DNA of 22,048 nt from a virus. The position numbers and the translations under genes are program-made. This document shows positions 286 to 22,048 of this stretch, in pieces (the stretch's first letter is position 1; each line of letters begins with the position of its first letter). Under the pieces are notes generated by a model, which worked only from the letters and a program-made list of their open reading frames with translations, did no database searches and was not told where the DNA came from. The stretch is from IMG/VR virus record IMGVR_UViG_3300046003_001035, positions 1-22,048 of that record; one strand, 5' to 3'.

Positions 286-1179
286 ATGGCCGTAGGTATC
301 ACGCCCGACATTAGTAATGAGAACCCATACATTAGTGTGGCGGAATACAAAAACGCGCCAACGGCAATCAACTATGACATGTTGGTTGTGGGAGGTAACG
401 CCGCGGCACAAGACGCAGAACTTGCAGAAGTTATTTTGCGCGCTTCTTCATACATGAATGAGTACCTCAACCAAAATCTTGTGGCCAGTCAGTACACAGA
501 AACACAGCGCATACGCTATTCAGCGTCAGGCGGGTACTACGCACTACACCCATACAACGCGCCTATTGTTTCTCTTTCAGCATTTTATTACGGGGCAAAC
601 CCAAATCAATTAAATGAATTACAGGACTGCTCAATAGCATGGTTTGAAGGGCAACAAATCATTATTCCTGGCAATCAAATTGGTTGGAACTATACATCTC
701 AAGGCCCGCTTCAGTTTGGCGGATCTATTGGGCAAAGCAATTACACATTTACTAAATACACATACATTGCGGGATACGCCAACACGGAATTAGCGGTGGC
801 AACCCTTGCAGGAGATAGCACTTTAACCGTGGCAAGTGGTACAGGTATTTTGGCAGGTGAGCAATACCGCATTTTTGATGGTCAGAGAACTGAGCGCGTA
901 ACGGTTGCAAGCAACTATGTTTATGGATCAACAACAGTTCCTTTGGCTTCTCCTATGGTCTTTGCTCATGGCGTTGGGGCAACATTTAGCAACCTGCCAA
1001 CTGTTCTCAAGCAAGCCTGTATTTTAATTACAACGGCATTTATTAAAATGCGTGGTGATGCTTCTACAACTATGGCTTACACAACCTCACCTTCAGGCAA
1101 CATTCCTGGTTCAGTGCGCTACGGCAATGACCTGGCCGTTGCGCTAGACATGGTGAACAAGTACCGCAGGATCAGATAA
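286..1179 (+). CDS. Head-tail connector (gp6-like adaptor)
   Basis: A 297-aa protein whose first 70 residues look like the helical N-terminus of HK97 gp6-type head-tail adaptors: ISVAEYKNAP followed by a helix of the type EVILRASSYMNEYLNQ. The C-terminal part (about residues 235-297) returns to helical sequence, while the middle (about 80-230) is rich in T, S, G and Y and looks like an inserted beta domain, which makes the protein longer than a minimal adaptor. Such proteins form a ring under the portal and join head to tail. A GGAG sits upstream of the ATG. The stop shares a base with the next start (TAATG), indicating translational coupling. Position and composition support the call; I had no profile search. 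Confidence 0.7.
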   Translation: MAVGITPDISNENPYISVAEYKNAPTAINYDMLVVGGNAAAQDAELAEVILRASSYMNEYLNQNLVASQYTETQRIRYSASGGYYALHPYNAPIVSLSAFYYGANPNQLNELQDCSIAWFEGQQIIIPGNQIGWNYTSQGPLQFGGSIGQSNYTFTKYTYIAGYANTELAVATLAGDSTLTVASGTGILAGEQYRIFDGQRTERVTVASNYVYGSTTVPLASPMVFAHGVGATFSNLPTVLKQACILITTAFIKMRGDASTTMAYTTSPSGNIPGSVRYGNDLAVALDMVNKYRRIR

Positions 1180-4024: not shown

Positions 4025-7000
4025 ATGGCTGATCTAATTCCACCAATGCTTATTAAATTACAGGCAGATGTAACTCAACTTAAAGTTGGATTAGCCCAGG
4101 CAGAAAGTGCGCTTCAAGGCGTAGATAAATCTGTTGCCACTGCGTCAAACGGCATGACAAATTTTATAGGCAAAATGAAACAAGTTGGCGCATCAATTGG
4201 TATTGCTTTTGCTGGTACTCAGGTTTTGCAATTTGGTAGAGATGTTATTCAACAGGCAATGGAAGCAGAAGCCCAACAGCAACGCCTAGCGCAATTGATG
4301 AAAGTAACGGTTGGTGCAACTGATGAGCAGATAGCCTCACTTAATGCGCAGGCTGATGCGTTGGAAAAAGTTGGCGTAATTACAGGCGGCAACATTACGC
4401 AAACACAATCACAGTTGGCAACATTCAATTTGCAAACTGACACTATTAAAAAATTAACGCCTGCAATTCTTGATTATGTCACCGCTGAAAAAGGCGCTAA
4501 CGCAAGCGCTGATGAGTTTAAGCAGATGACAAATGGATTGGCACAAGCGCTTAACGGCAATTTTGGATCTCTTACAAGAGTAGGTTTTGTTCTTGACGAT
4601 CACACAAAAAAACTTATTTCATCAGGAACAGAAGCAGAACGCGCCGCGGCTATTGTTGATGTGTTGGACTCAACTTACAAAGGTTTTAATGAGTCATTAA
4701 GAGATACGCCTGAAGGTCAGATGCAAGGCTTGATTAACGATTTTAACAAATTAAAAGAAGATTTAGGTAAAGCGTTACTTCCTGCATTACGCGCATTTAT
4801 GAGTTTTCTTACTAGCACTGTAATTCCTACGCTTAGAACATTTGGCAAATTAATTGCAGACAATGCAGAGGCGCTTAAAATGTACGCGGGTATTGTTTTG
4901 GGTGGTGCGGCGGCGTTTTATGTAGTGCGCGGTGCAATGATTGCCACTAAAGCCGTAATGGTTGTTTATACAGCGGTCACTAAATCAATGGCCGCGGGTC
5001 ACACATTAGCGGCTATTGCAACATTAAATTTCCGTGGCGCAATGATGATGCTTAACATGGCAATTCGCGCAAATCCAATTGGTGCAATCATCACCGCATT
5101 AACTGTTTTGGGTGCGGCGTTTGTTTTTGCATGGAAGAAATCAGAGACATTTAGAGGCATTGTCATCAAGGGTGTTCAAATAGTTCTCACTGGTTTTGCC
5201 TATTTAGTTCAAGGTATTGGCAAATTTATTGGCATGCTTGCAAAAGTTCCTGGCATGGGTTGGGCTAAAGGCATTGCAGATGGTGCTAAAAAAGCATCAG
5301 ACTCAATTAAAGAAACAAGTAAAAATTTATCAGATCTTAAAAGTTCTGTTAAAAGCGGCTACGGTGAAGGTGCGTTTACTTATGGCAGTGGTACGGGTTC
5401 AGGCGGCGGCGGTGGCGGCGGCGGTGGAGGCGGCCTTGATGACAAAGCAAAAAAGAAACTTGAAGGCTACAAAAAAGATGTAGCAAAAATTTACAATGAC
5501 ATGAATAAGGTCATTGCTGAGGCTCAAGAGAAGGCTCAAGAAGCCCTTGAAGCCCGCAACGAAAAAATGTTTGATGCGCACAAAAAGTATGATGAACGCG
5601 TTGCTGATCTTAAAAAGCGTTTTAGAGAAGCCAATGATGAAGCAGATAAGCGTTTTGAAGATGCTAAGGCAGATGCGCTTAACCGCAGAAATAAGGCTGA
5701 AACAGAAGCAAACAAGCGTTTCAGAGAAGTCACAGATGCTATTGAAAAAGATTACGCTGACAAAAAAGCAGATCTTCTTAAAGCCAACAATGAAAAACTT
5801 GATGACATTCGCAAAAAAGCCGCTGATAAAACTCTTGATTTAATTCAAGCCGCCGCGGAAAAACAATCTAACATTCTTCAACAGTCAATTGATCGTTTGC
5901 GTAATGCTTTTGCGTCTAAAACCAAATTTGATTTAGGTGAAGTATTTAAGGGTGGCGCAGACACCGCTGACAAACTTCTTGCTGATCTTAAAGAAAAATT
6001 AGCGGCGGCAAAACAATTACAGGCTAACGCCGCCGCCCTTGCTGGTGCAGGTTACAGCCAGGTGTTTATTGAAGAAGTTGTAAAACAAGGCCCTGAAGCG
6101 GGTAACAAAATTGCTGAAGCACTTAAAGCCGCTTCTCCTGAAGCCACTAAAGAATTACAAGATTTATACAATCAAGTAGAAACTGTTTCAGAGCATGGGT
6201 TAGATGCGCTTGCTAAAACCATGAACGCAGGGGGCAAACTTGCTACTGAAGAATTAATGGTTTCTTTTAATAAAGTATCCGCTGATCTTAAACAATCATT
6301 AAGCGCAGTTAATACTGAAATGAATGAGGCGTTGGCTGATGCTAATAAAGCATACAGCGAAGCAATGACTGAGGCTGAAGTAGTACGCAAAGAAAAAATG
6401 GCTGATGCTAATAAGACTCTTTTAGAGGCTTTGGCTGATACTAAGGCCACTTATGATGAAGCCTTAGCAGAGGCTACAAAGGCACTTACAGAGGCTAGAG
6501 CAGACGCACAAAAGAACCTTAGTGAAGGACTGGCAGAGGCTCAGAAAACCCTTCAGGAAGCGCTTACAGAGGCTCAAAAAGCCTATGAAGATGCCATTGA
6601 TGAAATCAATAAAGCCACACAAGAAAAACTTGATGCGCTTATGGAAAAACTTAGAGAAGTTGCCGCGCTTATGGCCGAACTTGGTGCAAAAAATGCTTCA
6701 TTAAACGCGTTAAAAAATGCTCCAAATTATGATGAAATTGTGCCTGAGACATACGGGCCGCCAGTTCAAGTTTCACCTGGCGTAACAGTTATTCCAACAA
6801 GTGATGCAAGTGATGAAACAATTAATGCCGCCGCCGCCGCCGCTGTTAAACTTGTTGGTGGAAGTACAAATGTTACGGTCAATGGTGTAAACCTTACAGA
6901 TCCTAATGGAACGGCCTCCGCTCTTGTTTCTATTATTAAATACGGTCAGACAGTAAGGGTGGCAACTTCATTGGCTAATGGCTTAGACATAACTGGCATT

Positions 7001-7039
7001 AAAGCGGCTCAATACGGATTTCAAGGTGCGGCAAAATGA
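4025..7039 (+). CDS. Tape measure protein
   Basis: A 1004-aa protein, the longest in the window, directly after the chaperone and gp10-like genes. Tape measures set tail length and help move DNA through the host envelope. Visible layout: N-terminal helical part (1-280); several hydrophobic segments (about 285-410, e.g. IVLGGAAAFYVV and IGAIITALTVLGAAF) suited to membrane insertion; a glycine-only linker (about 459-470, encoded near 5399-5435); long charged coiled-coil stretches (about 475-640 and 755-900) with repeated EAxKA and ADANK units; and a C-terminal beta-rich part (about 905-1004). By the usual approximation of 1.5 angstrom per residue, it would correspond to a tail of roughly 150 nm. 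The stop overlaps the next start (ATGA). Confidence 0.93.
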   Translation: MADLIPPMLIKLQADVTQLKVGLAQAESALQGVDKSVATASNGMTNFIGKMKQVGASIGIAFAGTQVLQFGRDVIQQAMEAEAQQQRLAQLMKVTVGATDEQIASLNAQADALEKVGVITGGNITQTQSQLATFNLQTDTIKKLTPAILDYVTAEKGANASADEFKQMTNGLAQALNGNFGSLTRVGFVLDDHTKKLISSGTEAERAAAIVDVLDSTYKGFNESLRDTPEGQMQGLINDFNKLKEDLGKALLPALRAFMSFLTSTVIPTLRTFGKLIADNAEALKMYAGIVLGGAAAFYVVRGAMIATKAVMVVYTAVTKSMAAGHTLAAIATLNFRGAMMMLNMAIRANPIGAIITALTVLGAAFVFAWKKSETFRGIVIKGVQIVLTGFAYLVQGIGKFIGMLAKVPGMGWAKGIADGAKKASDSIKETSKNLSDLKSSVKSGYGEGAFTYGSGTGSGGGGGGGGGGGLDDKAKKKLEGYKKDVAKIYNDMNKVIAEAQEKAQEALEARNEKMFDAHKKYDERVADLKKRFREANDEADKRFEDAKADALNRRNKAETEANKRFREVTDAIEKDYADKKADLLKANNEKLDDIRKKAADKTLDLIQAAAEKQSNILQQSIDRLRNAFASKTKFDLGEVFKGGADTADKLLADLKEKLAAAKQLQANAAALAGAGYSQVFIEEVVKQGPEAGNKIAEALKAASPEATKELQDLYNQVETVSEHGLDALAKTMNAGGKLATEELMVSFNKVSADLKQSLSAVNTEMNEALADANKAYSEAMTEAEVVRKEKMADANKTLLEALADTKATYDEALAEATKALTEARADAQKNLSEGLAEAQKTLQEALTEAQKAYEDAIDEINKATQEKLDALMEKLREVAALMAELGAKNASLNALKNAPNYDEIVPETYGPPVQVSPGVTVIPTSDASDETINAAAAAAVKLVGGSTNVTVNGVNLTDPNGTASALVSIIKYGQTVRVATSLANGLDITGIKAAQYGFQGAAK

Positions 7040-7896
7040 CAACATTAAATCAAGTTTATTCATTTGCTTTTAACAATCAAGTTTTTGGAGGCGCAGGTTC
7101 TCCTTATCAAATTCTTAGCGTTGATGGCCTTGAGTCGTTGCCTAGTATCCGCAATCAAGATGATAACCGCGGATACCATGATGGCATGTTTACAGGGCGA
7201 GATTTTCTAAACGGAAGAACTATCTCTATTATTTTTAATACTTTTGGTGATAATAATGGATCTGCCCAAACAAATTACAACACTATTCAAAGCGTTCTTT
7301 TGCCACAAACATCAGGCACAACGCCGCTTTATTTTAAGTTCCCAAACATTCCTACAAGTGAACAATTTGTAAACGCTCGCGTACGCGGTTTGCGCACAAC
7401 AGTTGATCCCAATTACACCTACGGATACATTACATCTCAAGTTGAATTTTTTTGTCCTGATCCAAATTATTACAACAGCAATTTGCAAACCGCCAACATG
7501 CTTATTAGCGCGGCTTTAGGGCGCACTTACAACAAGACATTTAATTACACATACGGCGGCGGTTCTTCTAGCGTTACAACTACAATTTCTAACATTGGGT
7601 GGGCTACTACTTATCCAACAATTACTATTCAAGGCCCTATTACAAATCCTATTATTGGTAATACAACTACTGGCAATACACTTAATTTTACTGGAACTTA
7701 CAGCGCGTTAGACATTTTGGAAATTGATCTTTACAATCAATTGATTACGCTCAACGGCGCGCCTGCTCGTAATCTTTTAATTTCAGGCACTTGGTTTGAT
7801 GCGCCCCCTGGCAATTCAAATTTTTATTTTACAGGCTCAAGTACATTAGCAGGAACTACTCAGGCTACCGTTTCTTGGTATTCTGCGTACATCTAA
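7036..7896 (+). CDS. Distal tail (Dit-like) protein
   Basis: A 286-aa beta-rich protein right after the tape measure, coupled by ATGA. The N-terminal half resembles siphovirus distal tail proteins: a strand followed by a loop (LSVDGLESLPSIRN), then DGMFTGRDFLNGRTISIIF, and an F.CPDPNYYN segment around residues 138-147, a signature seen in many Dit-type proteins just before the second domain. The C-terminal part (160-286) is rich in T, N and G and looks like a second beta sandwich. Dit forms the hub ring at the end of the tail tube to which fibres attach. Family call from motif style and gene order. Confidence 0.75.
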   Translation: MTTLNQVYSFAFNNQVFGGAGSPYQILSVDGLESLPSIRNQDDNRGYHDGMFTGRDFLNGRTISIIFNTFGDNNGSAQTNYNTIQSVLLPQTSGTTPLYFKFPNIPTSEQFVNARVRGLRTTVDPNYTYGYITSQVEFFCPDPNYYNSNLQTANMLISAALGRTYNKTFNYTYGGGSSSVTTTISNIGWATTYPTITIQGPITNPIIGNTTTGNTLNFTGTYSALDILEIDLYNQLITLNGAPARNLLISGTWFDAPPGNSNFYFTGSSTLAGTTQATVSWYSAYI

Positions 7897-7906
7897 AGGA
7901 GAATAA

Positions 7907-8800
7907 ATGACATTACAAACGCCTCCATCATGGCTACAAGCAGGCTCATACCCTGCTCAGTATGACCGCCTAACAGCGCAAGCATTATGGGCTACTACTG
8001 GCACAATTGGCACTTCTTCTTTGGCCGTTAGCCCTAATTCTCCTGCGGGTATGTCAGTCCGCGTTGCTTCAGGCTGGGCGGCAATTATTGGTACAACTAC
8101 AACCAACATGGGCGTTTACACAATTTTTAATGACGCAACTGACACGCTAACAATTACAACAGCCGATCCAACAAACCCACGCATTGACCTTGTGTGTGCA
8201 ACAGTGCGTGATGCTTTTTATTCAGGCGCTAACAATGATGTAATTTTTCAAGTTGTTGCAGGAACTCCTGCGGGATCTCCTGTTGCTCCTTCACTTCCTG
8301 CTAACTCAATTTCACTTGCAACTATTGCTGTTGGTGCGGCTGTTACTCAAATTAATGCAGGTGACATTATAGACACACGCGTAGCCGCAACTACAAATCT
8401 TGCGGTAGGTGACATTACTTCTGTTACAGCAGGTGCGGGATTAAGCGGTGGCGGTTCAAGCGGCGCTGTAACTTTGGCCGCAAGCGTGGCTACAAATGCA
8501 CAAACTGGAACTACTTATACTTTGGCTTTATCTGATAATGGAAAACTTGTAACGCTTGCTAACGCTTCTCCTGTTACTGTTACAATTCCTCTAAATAGTT
8601 CAGTTGCATTACCTGTTGGCGCTGTTATTATGATGGCGGCTTACGGAGCAGGAGCAGTAACAATTTCAGGAGCAGGAGGTGTAACCGTGGTTTCAGGCGG
8701 AACAACACCTGCAAGTCCTGTAATACGCGCTCAGTATTCATCTGTTGGCGCAATACAAACTTCAGCAAACAATTGGTTAGTAGTGGGAGACTTAATTTAA
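7907..8800 (+). CDS. Tail fibre / baseplate protein
   Basis: A 297-aa protein with an AAGGAG ribosome binding site. The N-terminal part (WLQAGSYPAQYDRLTAQALW, then VRVASGWAAIIG and NPRIDLV) resembles the module that anchors fibres in actinophage baseplates. In the middle, residues around 166-192 contain GDITSVTAGAGLSGGG, a fibre motif found in many phage side-fibre proteins and probably part of a trimeric shaft. The C-terminal hundred residues are a small beta domain (NGKLVTLANASPVTVTIP) of a type often seen at fibre tips. Its likely role is linking the tail hub to the adhesin encoded next, with which it overlaps by TAATG. Confidence 0.7.
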   Translation: MTLQTPPSWLQAGSYPAQYDRLTAQALWATTGTIGTSSLAVSPNSPAGMSVRVASGWAAIIGTTTTNMGVYTIFNDATDTLTITTADPTNPRIDLVCATVRDAFYSGANNDVIFQVVAGTPAGSPVAPSLPANSISLATIAVGAAVTQINAGDIIDTRVAATTNLAVGDITSVTAGAGLSGGGSSGAVTLAASVATNAQTGTTYTLALSDNGKLVTLANASPVTVTIPLNSSVALPVGAVIMMAAYGAGAVTISGAGGVTVVSGGTTPASPVIRAQYSSVGAIQTSANNWLVVGDLI

Positions 8801-10221
8801 TGTCACTTATTGCAGTTATTTCAGGATCAGGTAGATCTGTTCCTTCCGCTCCTACAATTGGTACAGCAACAGATGTTGGCACTAGCCGCGCTTACAACAA
8901 TGGCGCGGCAACAGTAACATTTACTGCTCCTGCTTATACAGGGCGCGTTGCTATCACTTCTTATACGGTTACTTCATCTCCTGGTGGATTTACCGCTTCA
9001 GGTGCTTCATCACCTTTAACAGTCACGGGTTTGCAATCATCTACTTCATACACTTTTACCGTAACGGCCACAAATTCAATTGGTACATCTGCGGCATCAG
9101 CGGCTTCTAACAGCATTACTGCTACAACAGTTCCTCAAGCGCCTACAATTGGTACAGCAACAGCAACAACTACAACAGCGGCAACCGTTACTTATACAGC
9201 GGGCGCTACTGGCGGCAAGGCTGTTTCTGCTTATACTGCAACTTCATCTCCTGGTTCAATAACAGGTACAGGTGCATCACCTATTACAGTTTCAGGATTA
9301 ACAACTGGAACGGCGTACACATTTACTGTTACGGCTACAAATGCCAATGGTACTTCTATTGCGTCATCTGCATCTAACAGCGTTACACCTAATCTACCTT
9401 CTGCTACAAGTGCCGACATTTTGCGCGTTGCAGGCGGCGGTGGTGGCGGTATGTTCTTAGGTGGTGGCGGTGGTGGTGGAGGCCTTCTCAATTCCGCAGG
9501 TGCTTCAGTATCAGGAGGTACTACATACACAATTACTATTGGCGGTGGTGGTGCTGGAAGCATCTCAGGTGGTGTTTCAGGGTCAAATGGAGGCGATACT
9601 ACTTTTACAGGCTTAACTACTGTTAATGGTGGAGGTTTGGGCGGTTACAACATTCCCCTCAACACTGGGTCAGGTTATGCAGGAGGTTCAGGTGGTGGAG
9701 GTGGCGGCGTTGCTAATAACCCTAGAGCGGGTGGCGCTGGTAATACACCTGCAACAACTCCATCACAAGGAAGTACTGGCGGTTCAGGCGCACAACTAGG
9801 TGGAGGTGGAACTGCAACATACAGCGGCGGTGGTGGTGGTGGCCATACATCTAATGGTGGCGCTGGAACTGATCCTAATGGTGGCGCTGGCGGATCAGGT
9901 ACAAGTTATTACGGCACTGTGTACTCTCAAGGCGCTCCTGGTTGTTCAGGTAGTAACGGAACTGTTCAAACTGGTTTGAATGGCGCTGGTAACGGCGGTA
10001 GAGAAGATTTCACAAATGCAACTTCAGGCGCGGCTAATAGAGGTGGTGGCGGTGGAGGAAACCGCGGAACTTTAACGGCCGCTAATGGTGGTAGTGGAAT
10101 TTGCATAGTGCGTTACCTTGATACTTTCAAGGCGGCAACAACTACTGGTTCTCCAACAGTTACCGTTACTGGCGGCTATCGTTTTTATACTTTTACAGGA
10201 AGCGGGAGTATCACATTCTAA
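8800..10221 (+). CDS. Receptor-binding adhesin: two FN3 domains plus glycine-rich domain
   Basis: A 473-aa protein from the ATG at 8800, chosen because it overlaps the preceding stop (TAATG); an in-frame start at 8773 lies inside that gene. Residues about 16-112 and 113-203 are two fibronectin type III-like repeats (APTIGTAT start, SSP, TSYTFTVTATN end). Residues about 204-440 are extremely glycine-rich, with many G4-G8 runs separated by short loops, starting ILRVAGGGGGGMFLGG and ending GGSGICIVRY. A short C-terminal strand region ends with RFYTFTGSGSITF. This matches the glycine-rich domains of phage adhesins, some of which fold as polyglycine-II sandwiches (T-even gp38 type). It is probably the host-range determinant. 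Confidence 0.8.
   Translation: MSLIAVISGSGRSVPSAPTIGTATDVGTSRAYNNGAATVTFTAPAYTGRVAITSYTVTSSPGGFTASGASSPLTVTGLQSSTSYTFTVTATNSIGTSAASAASNSITATTVPQAPTIGTATATTTTAATVTYTAGATGGKAVSAYTATSSPGSITGTGASPITVSGLTTGTAYTFTVTATNANGTSIASSASNSVTPNLPSATSADILRVAGGGGGGMFLGGGGGGGGLLNSAGASVSGGTTYTITIGGGGAGSISGGVSGSNGGDTTFTGLTTVNGGGLGGYNIPLNTGSGYAGGSGGGGGGVANNPRAGGAGNTPATTPSQGSTGGSGAQLGGGGTATYSGGGGGGHTSNGGAGTDPNGGAGGSGTSYYGTVYSQGAPGCSGSNGTVQTGLNGAGNGGREDFTNATSGAANRGGGGGGNRGTLTAANGGSGICIVRYLDTFKAATTTGSPTVTVTGGYRFYTFTGSGSITF
8851..9162 (+). repeat. In-frame duplicated FN3 module
   Basis: The 20-base string CTACAATTGGTACAGCAACA begins at 8852 and again at 9143, 291 nt (97 codons) apart, at the same point of each FN3 domain. 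Further shared strings include the segments encoding TSSPG and YTFTVTATN. This indicates tandem duplication of a whole FN3 domain within the adhesin gene, or recent exchange between the copies. Confidence 0.7.
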
Positions 10222-10595
10222 TGGCACACTTTGCGCAACTAGATGACAACAATAAAGTATTAAATGTTATTGTTGTTAATAATGAAGAACTAATAGAAAA
10301 TGATGTTGAATTAGAAGCAAAAGGAATTGCATTTTGTCAATCACTTTTTGGTGAAAATACAAGATGGGTACAAACTTCATTTAACGGATCTTTCCGTAAA
10401 AACTTTGCTGGTGTTGATTACACATACGATCCAATTGCTGATCATTTTTATTCACCCTCTGTTTTTGCTTCATGGATACTAAATGAAAATACAGCGCGTT
10501 GGGAAGCACCCGTTCCTCAACCTAATGACGGTAAAAAGTATGTTTGGAATGAAGATAATTTAGAATGGACAGAATTTAATGTTAGCGGTCAATAA
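10221..10595 (+). CDS. Conserved structural-type protein of aquatic phages
   Basis: A 124-aa protein (MAHFAQLDDNNKVLNVIVVNNEE start; GIAFCQSLFGENTRWVQTS; FRKNFAGVDYTYD; ASWILNENTARWEAPVP; KYVWNEDNLEW). I recognise this pattern as a family frequent in marine cyanophages and other aquatic phages, usually in tail or fibre gene neighbourhoods, but I know of no assigned function. It is W, N and Y rich without membrane segments. It is coupled to the adhesin gene by TAATG and precedes the hub-like gene, so a virion role in the baseplate or fibre is likely. Family memory, not a search, supports this. Confidence 0.7.
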   Translation: MAHFAQLDDNNKVLNVIVVNNEELIENDVELEAKGIAFCQSLFGENTRWVQTSFNGSFRKNFAGVDYTYDPIADHFYSPSVFASWILNENTARWEAPVPQPNDGKKYVWNEDNLEWTEFNVSGQ

Positions 10596-10597
10596 AC

Positions 10598-11710
10598 ATG
10601 GCCACGACTTATCGTTATTTATTTGTTGATCTTTTAAGCAACACCATTATTGGTGAACTTCCCTTAACTGGCGTAGGTTTTACTCAACAATTAAATCAAC
10701 CAGGAACATTTCAAGGTCACTTGCTTTTGTCAGGCGTAAATGCAGATAAATACAATGTTGAACTTTCAACTATCCCTGCTCATTGCGGATTGTATGTAGA
10801 TCGTGATGGCGTGTTGGTATGGGGCGGAGTTATTTGGGGGCGTTCATACAACAGCACTTCACAAATTTTGTCTTTCAGTGCGCAAGAATGGATTTCATAC
10901 TTTGATCATAGACGCGTCACTCAAGATGTTGAATTTACAAATGTTGATCAATTGGTTATAGCCAAAACGCTCATTGAAGATGCTCAAAATGCAACTTACG
11001 GTGACATTGGAGTTGGCTATAACACCGCAGGGCAAACAACATCAGGTGTATTGGTAAGCCGTACTTATTACAATTATGAATTAAAAAATGTATTTCAAGC
11101 AATTCAAGATCTTAGCCGTCAGGGTGATGGTTTTGATTTCTCAATTGATGTTAATTATGATGGCATTACAGGCTTGCCTGTTAAAAACTTTAACACTTAC
11201 TACCCGCGAAGTGGTTTGGCGTATTCTTTTGGTGATCCAAATGTTCCTGTATTTACTTTCCCCGCAGGCAACATGGTGGAGTATGAGTATCCTGAAGATG
11301 GTTCAGTTGTAGCCAACACTGTTTATTCTTTGGGTGCTGGTTCTAATGAAGGAAAATTAATTGCGGTAGGGCAAGACACTTCAAAATTGCTTGCAGGTTG
11401 GGCATTATTAGAAACCACATCAAACTATTCAGACATTACAGATGTTACAGTTTTACAACAACTAGCCAACGCTCAATCTTTGGCTACTTCTTATCCACCC
11501 GTTGTTCTCAAAGTTGTTGTGCCTGCTTATGTAGATCCTGTATTTGGCACTTATGCGCTAGGTGATGATGCTCGCATTATTATTACAGATAGTCGTTTTC
11601 CTAATACGCTTGATGAAATTTACCGCATTGTTGGCCTTACTGTTCAGCCAGGTGAAGATGGCCCTGAACGCGTAACATTAACTCTTGCACAAGGAGCGGG
11701 AGAAGCGTAA
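10598..11710 (+). CDS. Minor tail / tail hub protein (Gp37-like)
   Basis: A 370-aa protein resembling the actinophage minor tail proteins of the ReqiPepy6 Gp37-like type, which form the tail-tip hub. The N-terminus is a beta domain (YRYLFVDLLSNTIIGELPLTGVGFTQQLNQPGTF) with VDRDGVLVWGGVIWGRSY at about residues 67-84. A hub-like middle follows (FSAQEWISYFDHRRV; FDFSIDVNYD), and a C-terminal beta part contains DEIYRIVGLTVQPGEDGPERVTLTL. The adhesin and aquatic-phage gene are inserted between Dit and this hub gene. The stop overlaps the next start (TAATG). Family assignment by pattern; role from the family. Confidence 0.75.
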   Translation: MATTYRYLFVDLLSNTIIGELPLTGVGFTQQLNQPGTFQGHLLLSGVNADKYNVELSTIPAHCGLYVDRDGVLVWGGVIWGRSYNSTSQILSFSAQEWISYFDHRRVTQDVEFTNVDQLVIAKTLIEDAQNATYGDIGVGYNTAGQTTSGVLVSRTYYNYELKNVFQAIQDLSRQGDGFDFSIDVNYDGITGLPVKNFNTYYPRSGLAYSFGDPNVPVFTFPAGNMVEYEYPEDGSVVANTVYSLGAGSNEGKLIAVGQDTSKLLAGWALLETTSNYSDITDVTVLQQLANAQSLATSYPPVVLKVVVPAYVDPVFGTYALGDDARIIITDSRFPNTLDEIYRIVGLTVQPGEDGPERVTLTLAQGAGEA

Positions 11711-18414: not shown

Positions 18415-19223
18415 CTTCACTGCCATACATGCAGTTGTATGTTTCTGATTACCTGGCAGACACAGCCCACCTCACAGCGCAACAGCATGGCGCATACATG
18501 CTTTTGTTAATGAATTACTGGCAACGCGGCAAAGCGCTGGACAATAGCAACGAGCGCTTGTCACATGTAGCCCGTCTCAGCCCTGAAGAATGGGCAGAGG
18601 CAAAGCCAACGCTAGAAGAATTTTTTATTGTTGAGGGTAATTTATGGACTCATGCCAGGGTAGAAGATGACCTTGAAAAGATCCGTGAGAAGTCTGCGAA
18701 GGCATCATTTGCAGGAAAAAGATCAGTTGTTGCGCGTGGAATGAGCGAGCGTTCAACAAACGCTGAACAATCGTTGAACCATAAAGAGGAAGATAAAGAG
18801 GAAGATAAAGATAAAGACACAAACAAAAAAGATTTGTTTGTGGATTTTTGGAATGTCTATCCTTTGAAGGTGGGAAAAGGTGCGGCACTTAAAGCATTTG
18901 AAAAAGCGATCCGTACAACTGATGCAGGCATAATCATTAAAGGCGCTCTGCGGTACAAATCAGACCCAAACAGAGTGCCAGGGTACACAGCACATGCCGC
19001 AACATGGTTAAACGCTCAGAGATGGCTTGATGACCCTTTGCCACCCCGTAATCTTTCTCCCGCAGAAATCAAGGAAAAAGAATTACAAGATGCAAGAGCA
19101 AAAGCAGAACGAGAAAGAGCGGAGAATGAAGCATGGTTCAAGGAACAGGAACTACAAAGAGAACGAGCCGTACCACCACCCGCAGAACTCAGAGAACTTT
19201 TGAGAAAGAGTTTTACAAAATAA
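18411..19223 (+). CDS. DUF1376 replication protein
   Basis: A 270-aa protein. Residues 1-110 are a DUF1376 domain (LPYMQLYVSDYLADTAHLTAQQHGAYMLLLMNYW; EEFFIVEGNLWTHARVEDDL), linked by an acidic-basic low-complexity stretch (EEDKEEDKDKDTNKKD) to a C-terminal domain with FWNVYPLKVGKGAALKAFEKA and HAATWLNAQRWLDDP, as in phage replication initiators and primosomal O-like proteins. A charged helix follows (ARAKAERERAENEAW). It probably loads a helicase or recognises the origin. No helicase gene is in the window, so the host's may be used. It is coupled to WhiB by ATGA. Confidence 0.8.
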   Translation: MTSLPYMQLYVSDYLADTAHLTAQQHGAYMLLLMNYWQRGKALDNSNERLSHVARLSPEEWAEAKPTLEEFFIVEGNLWTHARVEDDLEKIREKSAKASFAGKRSVVARGMSERSTNAEQSLNHKEEDKEEDKDKDTNKKDLFVDFWNVYPLKVGKGAALKAFEKAIRTTDAGIIIKGALRYKSDPNRVPGYTAHAATWLNAQRWLDDPLPPRNLSPAEIKEKELQDARAKAERERAENEAWFKEQELQRERAVPPPAELRELLRKSFTK

Positions 19224-21769: not shown

Positions 21770-22048
21770 CTGAAGCGTCTAACACAAATCCTTTTAAGCG
21801 CCGCATTAGCGGTAGGAATTGTGTTTGCTTCACCTGCGGCGGCTCAAGCACCTAAATTACAGTTGCATCAAATGCCGCCAAAAGTTATTGCGCTTGAAAT
21901 GGTGAAGAAAAATTACCCTGATCATAAAAAGCAATTTGCCTGCCTGGAACAATTGCTTTACAAGGAGAGTGGGTGGAGGGTCAATGCGCTTAATCGTTCA
22001 TCAGGCGCATTTGGGCTTTTTCAGTTTTTGCCGTCCACATGGAAAAAT
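21770..22048 (+). CDS. Secreted lytic transglycosylase, 3'-truncated by window end; CTG start
   Basis: The open frame runs from the TAA at 21764 to the window end (93 codons visible). The best start is CTG at 21770: it follows AAAGG by about 8 nt and yields a perfect Sec signal (KRLTQILLSAALAVGIVFAS, then PAAAQA). Any later GTG or ATG would remove most of the signal. The mature part contains YKESGWRVNA with candidate catalytic Glu66, then SSGAFGLFQFLPSTW, the hallmark of the SLT/goose-lysozyme-like transglycosylase fold. It should cut glycan strands outside the membrane. It may help lysis, DNA entry or wall remodelling, in addition to the CHAP endolysin. Confidence 0.8.
   Translation, partial: MKRLTQILLSAALAVGIVFASPAAAQAPKLQLHQMPPKVIALEMVKKNYPDHKKQFACLEQLLYKESGWRVNALNRSSGAFGLFQFLPSTWKN

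Follow-up and report, generated by a model that had tools for sequence, protein, structure and literature searches.

The window analysed here, i.e., the whole stretch of 22,048 bases, is the IMG/VR virus record IMGVR_UViG_3300046003_001035, and the virus is described as a freshwater phage. We focus on a gene at 8800-10221, encoding an adhesin with two FN3 (fibronectin type III) domains followed by a glycine-rich domain (GRD), and on the gene directly downstream, whose product belongs to the phage protein family phrog_7759. The features of these two genes are as follows:

8800..10221, plus strand: FN3-FN3-glycine-rich adhesin, 473 residues; ATG at 8800, stop at 10219-10221; the ATG overlaps the preceding stop codon (TAATG)
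8842..9135, plus strand: FN3 domain 1, residues 15-112 (Pfam fn3; approximate boundaries)
9136..9393, plus strand: FN3 domain 2, residues 113-198 (Pfam fn3); the DNA match to 5 of 14 diverged loci stops here
9418..10119, plus strand: predicted TNF-like/glycine-rich head, residues 207-440 (PF21722; AlphaFold2 model; Pam3 and Bxb1 structural matches)
10132..10218, plus strand: C-terminal beta-hairpin, residues 445-473 (profile searches); proposed to correspond to the hairpin located ahead of the GRD in relatives that are not permuted
10221..10595, plus strand: phrog_7759 protein, 124 residues, a putative chaperone cognate to the head; in the model, residues 1-79 (10221-10457) can be aligned to the Pam3 gp25 fibre-binding domain

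Pfam searches identify fn3 (PF00041) in two stretches of the adhesin with an expect value (E) of 6.5e-16 and 58.8 bits against a cut-off of 25, and Gly_rich_2 (PF21722) over residues 193-439 of the whole protein with an E of 4.5e-15 and 56.7 bits against a curated cut-off of 24.3, in agreement with the FN3-FN3-glycine-rich open reading frame (ORF) described in the initial annotation of this DNA. The PF21722 match is common to all 40 members of alignment set A1 and all 49 of A3; the C-terminal hairpin of the window (445-473) lies beyond the end of the profile match (439). The FN3 copies are a duplication, as had been noted earlier, with 67% nucleotide identity between 8839-9119 and 9130-9386. 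The GRD (207-440) contains 89 Gly in 234 residues, with G runs of length 4-8, and the 100-residue stretch of the adhesin richest in Gly has 44 of them, whereas 2000 shuffles of the same protein, scored identically, average 32.0 and never exceed 41. Tandem Repeats Finder reports rows in the window only at 5402-5434 and 18781-18811 and no DNA tandem array within the adhesin gene; thus, the 'low complexity' of the adhesin is a protein-level property and not a head-to-tail DNA repeat. The first of these rows is a 12-base G-rich tandem repeat in the tape measure gene, where it encodes a glycine run. A tblastn search of the phage collection with the adhesin found no match, for which BLAST low-complexity masking is a possible cause.

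Residues 201-473 were modelled as a monomer with AlphaFold2 from an alignment of 40 heads, with a mean predicted local distance difference test score (pLDDT) of 91.2 and a predicted template modelling score (pTM) of 0.90. The best VIA match of this model is the Pam3 fibre (7ypx_A; Z 13.7, 168 residues, 2.6 Å), followed by the Bxb1 tail tip (9d93_Qa; Z 13.3, 170 residues, 3.3 Å); the next family, ALK/LTK, scores Z 4.9-5.9 and the remaining chains score at most 4.0. Foldseek against the PDB likewise has Bxb1 (E 5.7e-4) and Pam3 (E 1.3e-3) as its first matches, with modest TM scores of 0.32-0.39, and places ALK/LTK at ranks 5-8 without significance. The predicted head therefore has the Pam3 gp24-type TNF-like/glycine-rich fold, clearly above ALK/LTK, and the model is in keeping with the tip adhesin bearing a glycine-strand lattice that had been suggested initially; a polyglycine-II geometry of the head would follow from the fold match. 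In BFVD, 147 viral models match the head at E <= 0.001 and, among the 50 matches listed, most carry the name glycine-rich domain protein and three the name fibronectin type III, so the domain is already in databases and its combination with FN3 probably is too. A tblastn search with the Pam3 fibre fragment found no match, and in bases 1-28000 of the 50550 of Bxb1 the most Gly-rich product is gp29, which is incompatible with the numbering of 9D93 chain Q.

The model of the 124-residue partner protein has a pLDDT of 93.1 and a pTM of 0.77. A VIA Z of 2 is reached by 3 of 116 aligned chains, the top being Pam3 gp25 (7ypx_a; residues 3-57, Z 6.0, 55 residues, 1.8 Å) and the second Mu Tfa (5yvq_B; Z 2.9); both are chaperones of tail fibres, and gp25 has as its own partner the very protein that best matches the head. 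The partner model ends in a strand-rich tail where gp25 has a helical domain. All 39 partner members scanned match phrog_7759, a family annotated as of unknown function, and no Pfam family falls under an E of 0.018 for them. Two of the 40 partner proteins are near-copies of the window's protein and were omitted from the partner alignment, which comprises the other 38 and the window's own.

We propose, with a probability of roughly 0.77, that 8800-10221 and 10221-10595 together encode a modular receptor-binding head that is circularly permuted and that is exchanged as a unit with its cognate chaperone. The two FN3 domains would serve as a stalk linking the adhesin to the tail, possibly via the 7907-8800 protein, and would bear a TNF-like beta-sandwich; a lattice of extended glycine strands would project from this sandwich, with the variable loops at the strand tips as probable receptor contacts. 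The phrog_7759 protein would fold the adhesin head as a cognate chaperone through its gp25-like fibre-binding domain. The head would be a circular permutant whose closing hairpin is C-terminal instead of N-terminal, and related phages would swap head and chaperone together through crossovers that, for the most part, fall within FN3 to the left and at the minor-tail gene to the right. The domain content, the exchange in the slot, the correlation of head with partner and the position of the hairpin are observed, the folds of both proteins are predicted, and receptor binding, chaperoning, trimerisation and docking are the activities we infer for this system. It is possible, though we think it improbable, that the phrog_7759 protein is not a released chaperone but remains part of the virion, either as a cap or as a second receptor-binding component: the strand-rich tail predicted in place of the gp25 helical domain would suit such a role, and the Ur-lambda and Mu chaperones are present in mature phages, whereas gp25, the best match of the partner, went undetected in Pam3 virions (both according to PMC9608196).

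The proposal of a cognate chaperone draws on 75 distinct adjacent head/partner pairs, near-duplicates included, collected from related loci (labelled L with a number); the two genes overlap by one base in 42 of them, including the window's. Permuted heads with a short hairpin have an F-type partner in 25 of 25 pairs and those with a long hairpin a Y-type partner in 13 of 13, and non-permuted heads have W-type partners in 17 pairs, F-type in seven and an unclear one in a single pair; the remaining pairs comprise YWS-ending heads with F-type partners (three) and others (nine). Over the three named head classes with a clear partner type, the classes match in 55 of 62 pairs, a number reached by 0 of 10,000 permutations (maximum 36). 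Under a first class rule two C-long heads had F-type partners (L074, L098), and under the revised rule none. In the 42 pairs with window-like FN3, Mantel tests give r 0.51 (p 0.0005) for head and partner (first 85 residues), r 0.08 (p 0.20) for head and FN3 and r 0.13 (p 0.11) for FN3 and partner, though choosing proteins for their similarity in FN3 restricts the range of FN3 and could depress the FN3 correlations. When heads at least 90% identical are excluded, the head class is the same in 94 of 94 protein pairs with partners at least 65% identical, and in 7 of 25 with FN3 at least 85% identical; over all pairs, with no such exclusion, it is the same in 232 of 861. One locus, L033, carries three head/partner pairs, one of each class.

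Such a match could in principle reflect joint inheritance of neighbours with no physical interaction, since the genes are adjacent and the tests ignore relatedness. However, FN3 is equally near the head, in the same gene, and yet is uncoupled from it (with the narrowed FN3 range noted above), L033, L022 and L052 each carry two or three pairs of differing class that are all matched, and the best structural match of the partner is a chaperone of this head type; we therefore regard joint inheritance alone as unlikely and the assignment of a cognate partner gene as well supported. The association extends to public phages. Relatives of phrog_7759 are found in 35 public phage records, and in all 16 regions taken from these so as to avoid near-duplicates a Gly-rich ORF is present, lying directly upstream (<=64 nt) of the phrog_7759 relative in 11; for other plus-strand ORFs of 80-175 residues in the same regions, a Gly-rich ORF is directly upstream in 0 of 54. 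We lean towards a broader view in which the tail-tip slot of one clade alternates native and permuted heads, each with its own phrog_7759 class, and in which phrog_7759 is a widespread chaperone family of Gly_rich_2 adhesins. In five of the 16 public regions (L166, L168, L170, L173 and L178), 2-oxoglutarate/Fe(II) (2OG-Fe(II)) oxygenase genes are near the Gly-rich and phrog_7759 genes, as is a leprecan-like gene in L168 and L173; the products of these genes might modify fibres.

The last 29 residues of the window's adhesin correspond to a hairpin motif that is found before the GRD in other proteins. Profile searches place the hairpin before the GRD in 67 of 127 proteins, after it in 45, on both sides in none and on neither in 15 (a tally omitting ten proteins with no GGxG run, and L082, which is the same as the window), with a Fisher p of 1e-21 for exclusivity that is uncorrected for relatedness and comes from profiles built from the same proteins. 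Among 52 slot proteins found independently of the adhesin the corresponding numbers are 31, 18, 0 and 3. These searches supersede an early regular-expression tally (C-terminal 46, before 12, neither 70), which was too strict. The C-type head alignment holds 40 of 46 heads including the window's (three left out as duplicates or over-long, three as mis-started) and the non-permuted one 49 of 52, and five sequences with misplaced starts were removed from the non-permuted hairpin seed. By sequence, the PDB entry that the non-permuted-head profile matches best is Pam3 (E 2e-4), with an alignment that starts at the second hairpin strand, and in VIA model residues 1-245 align with Pam3 95-280, which is the chain end; hence the Pam3 fibre has no C-terminal hairpin, and Pam3 looks non-permuted and the window permuted. 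The strand order of the Pam3 gp24 type has the hairpin before the glycine-rich part, and because that of the window is C-terminal, its head is a variant and not a plain member of this type. We infer that the hairpin has the same position in the fold whether the head is permuted or not. An argument from where the Pfam match starts in the profile was dropped: the trimmed window head starts at position 14 and L104 at 7, yet the whole window protein at 4. We found no paper in the open PMC literature on circular permutation in glycine-rich tail fibers, nor one linking phage tail glycine-rich domain, fibronectin and freshwater.

An alternative to permutation would be a C-terminal hairpin that is an independent add-on, such as a trimerisation tag or chaperone-binding tail, and not a relocated TNF-like strand pair. 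The similarity of the two hairpin profiles does rest on 26 columns, but hhalign gives them a probability of 94% against 0.5-1.6% for three FN3 controls, a motif closely matching the window-type one precedes the GRD in L076 and L084 (E 3e-8 and 3e-5), and the positions are mutually exclusive in both tallies, albeit with profiles from the same proteins. An add-on thus appears rather unlikely, and we continue to favour a permuted head.

The remaining part of the proposal, exchange as a unit, concerns the slot in which these genes lie. The genes flanking the adhesin and its partner are:

7036..7896, plus strand: distal tail protein (Dit; SPP1_Dit, E 2.9e-9)
7907..8800, plus strand: upstream structural protein, 297 residues, possible adhesin anchor (phrog_3398, phrog_8780)
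10598..11710, plus strand: conserved minor tail protein, right slot border (phrog_1885; relatives in Streptomyces, Arthrobacter and Microbacterium phages)

The tail tube protein, tape measure, Dit and 297-residue protein genes precede the adhesin, and the phrog_7759, minor tail protein and endolysin genes follow it. Thirty loci combine a minor tail protein of at least 85% identity with an uncut upstream gene; each of their slots carries a Gly-rich protein, with 33-53 Gly in its densest 100 residues, while N-terminal modules, head and neighbours vary; Dit, where present, is 74-100% identical. DNA borders were compared in 16 chosen loci, of which L082 and L083 are near-identical to the window, leaving 14 diverged loci. 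The main left-hand match stops near the end of FN3 domain 2 (9341-9390) in five (L085, L101, L095, L097 and L108), near the end of FN3 domain 1 (9110-9155) in another five (L087, L104, L099, L088 and L125), and earlier at 8870 (L106), 8472 (L084) and 8400 (L110), the last two within the 7907-8800 gene; the left part is absent from the match in L103, and several of the 14 have additional shorter secondary FN3 matches. For 12 of the 14 the long right-hand match begins at 10597-10598; the exceptions are L103 (10220) and L125 (10139, inside the C-terminal hairpin of the adhesin). Short patches of 72-77% lie between 10087 and 10557 in L099, L088 and L110. No left-hand match among the 14 ends inside the GRD, and recombination within the G-run DNA, which the initial annotation had expected from its low complexity, was rejected on this ground.

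By eye, the C-terminal part of the 7907-8800 protein is retained in all 19 slots with FN3 adhesins and missing from 8 of the 11 FN3-less slots, several loci being near-identical; this co-presence suggests that this part is the docking site of the adhesin. L102:5458-6698 has two extra genes after the partner gene, one with a P-loop kinase-like start by eye (MIIQIIGLPGAGKTALATAL). In L110:2903-6018 and L137:563-3525 the slot has three permuted Gly-rich genes, the partner gene lying after the second and before the third. Some slots, though not the window's, have a gene of 232-234 residues ending YKKFWWxRKEY-like between the partner and minor tail genes:

L087:6293-6991
L094:4289-4987
L099:6293-6991
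L104:6297-7001
L106:6300-7001
L110:6084-6785

The actinobacterial host is assigned on the basis of 65 phage records (Streptomyces 43, Arthrobacter 11, Microbacterium 7, others 4), all below 60% identity; a genome scan for a host link with the minor tail protein as the query found no relative. An ORF at 21821-22048, cut by the window end, is transglycosylase-like by eye only (ESGW...GLFQFLPSTW).

Sequence variability was compared among 23 relatives with both FN3 domains and the head type of the window. Relative to the window, these are 57-92% identical in FN3 and 32-46% identical in the GRD, and the entropy is 0.84 and 0.70 bits in the FN3 domains, 1.57 in the GRD overall, 1.23 in strand-like segments and 2.18 at the tips, where columns were picked by eye. 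The loops are thus more variable than the rest of the gene, as had been predicted for this locus; with the fold confidently predicted too, neither of the outcomes that the initial annotation had named as refuting it (no such fold, and loops no more variable than the rest) occurred. Loci found via the minor tail protein alone, which are free of the ranking bias discussed below, agree on head variability; in one of them, L085, Dit and the minor tail protein are each 94% identical and the adhesin matches over residues 1-211 alone. Nine close pairs were found, of which three are GRD by their ends and the rest different Gly-rich proteins; in these three (L131/L132, L002/L017 and L011/L033) the ratio of nonsynonymous to synonymous substitution rates (dN/dS) is 0.23, 0.28 and 0.36, so that the variation looks like module replacement and not like hypermutating loops. 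On these few data, positive selection on loops is unsupported. This average purifying selection would also fit a GRD that is a structural spacer with no receptor role, but alleles are exchanged beside conserved genes, the variability is concentrated at the tips, and, in PP01 gp38, loops comparable to the window's tips contact OmpC; a mere spacer is thus very unlikely.

Several points weigh against a permuted head exchanged with a cognate chaperone. For the partner, Foldseek finds no match to the model at E <= 0.001, the Z of 6.0 is under the level that VIA calls safe, and the model has no counterpart of the C-terminal helical trimerisation domain of gp25, with no helix of at least four residues after residue 43. 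Five of the 16 public regions have their nearest upstream Gly-rich ORF at a distance of 0.9-2.8 kb, and the one-letter class code fails in CRP-207 and ctn9Y15 and so is not general to public phages. Among the 75 pairs there are near-duplicates (L082/L083, L088/L090), seven non-permuted heads take F-type instead of W-type partners, and the 55-of-62 match uses class rules that were set, and once revised, after the pairs were seen; all coupling and hairpin statistics ignore relatedness. For the hairpin, the Pam3 E of 2e-4 sums two composition-biased Gly-rich stretches that are not significant singly (E 0.2 and 3.1), and the window-type profile reaches E 0.32 against Pam3. As for the tip entropy of 2.18 bits, the columns were chosen post hoc and Gly columns are conserved partly by definition, and some loci were ranked by an FN3-dominated match, which biases FN3 towards conservation.

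Beyond the initial annotation, the analysis adds a cognate downstream gene, a permuted topology and a cassette slot. It provides a testable function for phrog_7759, a phage family so far of unknown function whose members lie immediately next to glycine-rich proteins in phages that infect Pelagibacter, Synechococcus, the Roseobacter group, Methylophilales and actinobacteria (Pontimonas). An exchange unit of head and partner would explain how receptor specificity changes in aquatic phages while the rest of the tail is kept, and the alleles of this one locus provide a natural example of apparent circular permutation.

The initial annotation likened the adhesin to T-even gp38 (S16, PP01), which also displays receptor loops on a glycine strand lattice, and Pam3 gp24 itself resembles S16 gp38 (2.7 Å over 52 residues), but a gp38-type adhesin is highly improbable here, because the structural matches are TNF-like heads, whereas gp38 has a beta-helix base (these two comparisons as given in PMC9608196), and Pfam gives Gly_rich_2 and no gp38 family at E <= 1. 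Neither Foldseek nor VIA lists S16 gp38 (6F45) as a structural match, an absence that is inconclusive and does not exclude likeness; gp38 as the closest relative was dropped in favour of Pam3 gp24 and Bxb1 on the fold matches and Pfam. The glycine-rich domain of the ALK/LTK receptors shares the TNF-like plus polyglycine arrangement, but these are animal receptors with weak, non-significant scores, and we do not claim descent. Domains of this sort are termed polyglycine-rich or brush domains in PMC13243795 and PMC13252515. The architecture had been considered notable in a siphovirus of an actinobacterial host; it is not exceptional there, since the tail tip of Bxb1 (9D93 chain Q), an actinobacterial siphovirus infecting Mycobacterium, has the same head fold by VIA. 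Pam3 gp24 (7YPX, 7YFW) likewise has a TNF-like domain, glycine-rich strands and a variable distal tip, according to PMC9608196, and the N-terminal domain of its chaperone gp25 may resemble the downstream protein of the window. Pam3, however, is a myovirus whose fibre has an alpha-helical N-terminal shaft in place of the FN3 stalk, and gp25 carries a helical domain that the 124-residue protein does not have. Thus, the adhesin of the window is of a known kind with an unusual topology.

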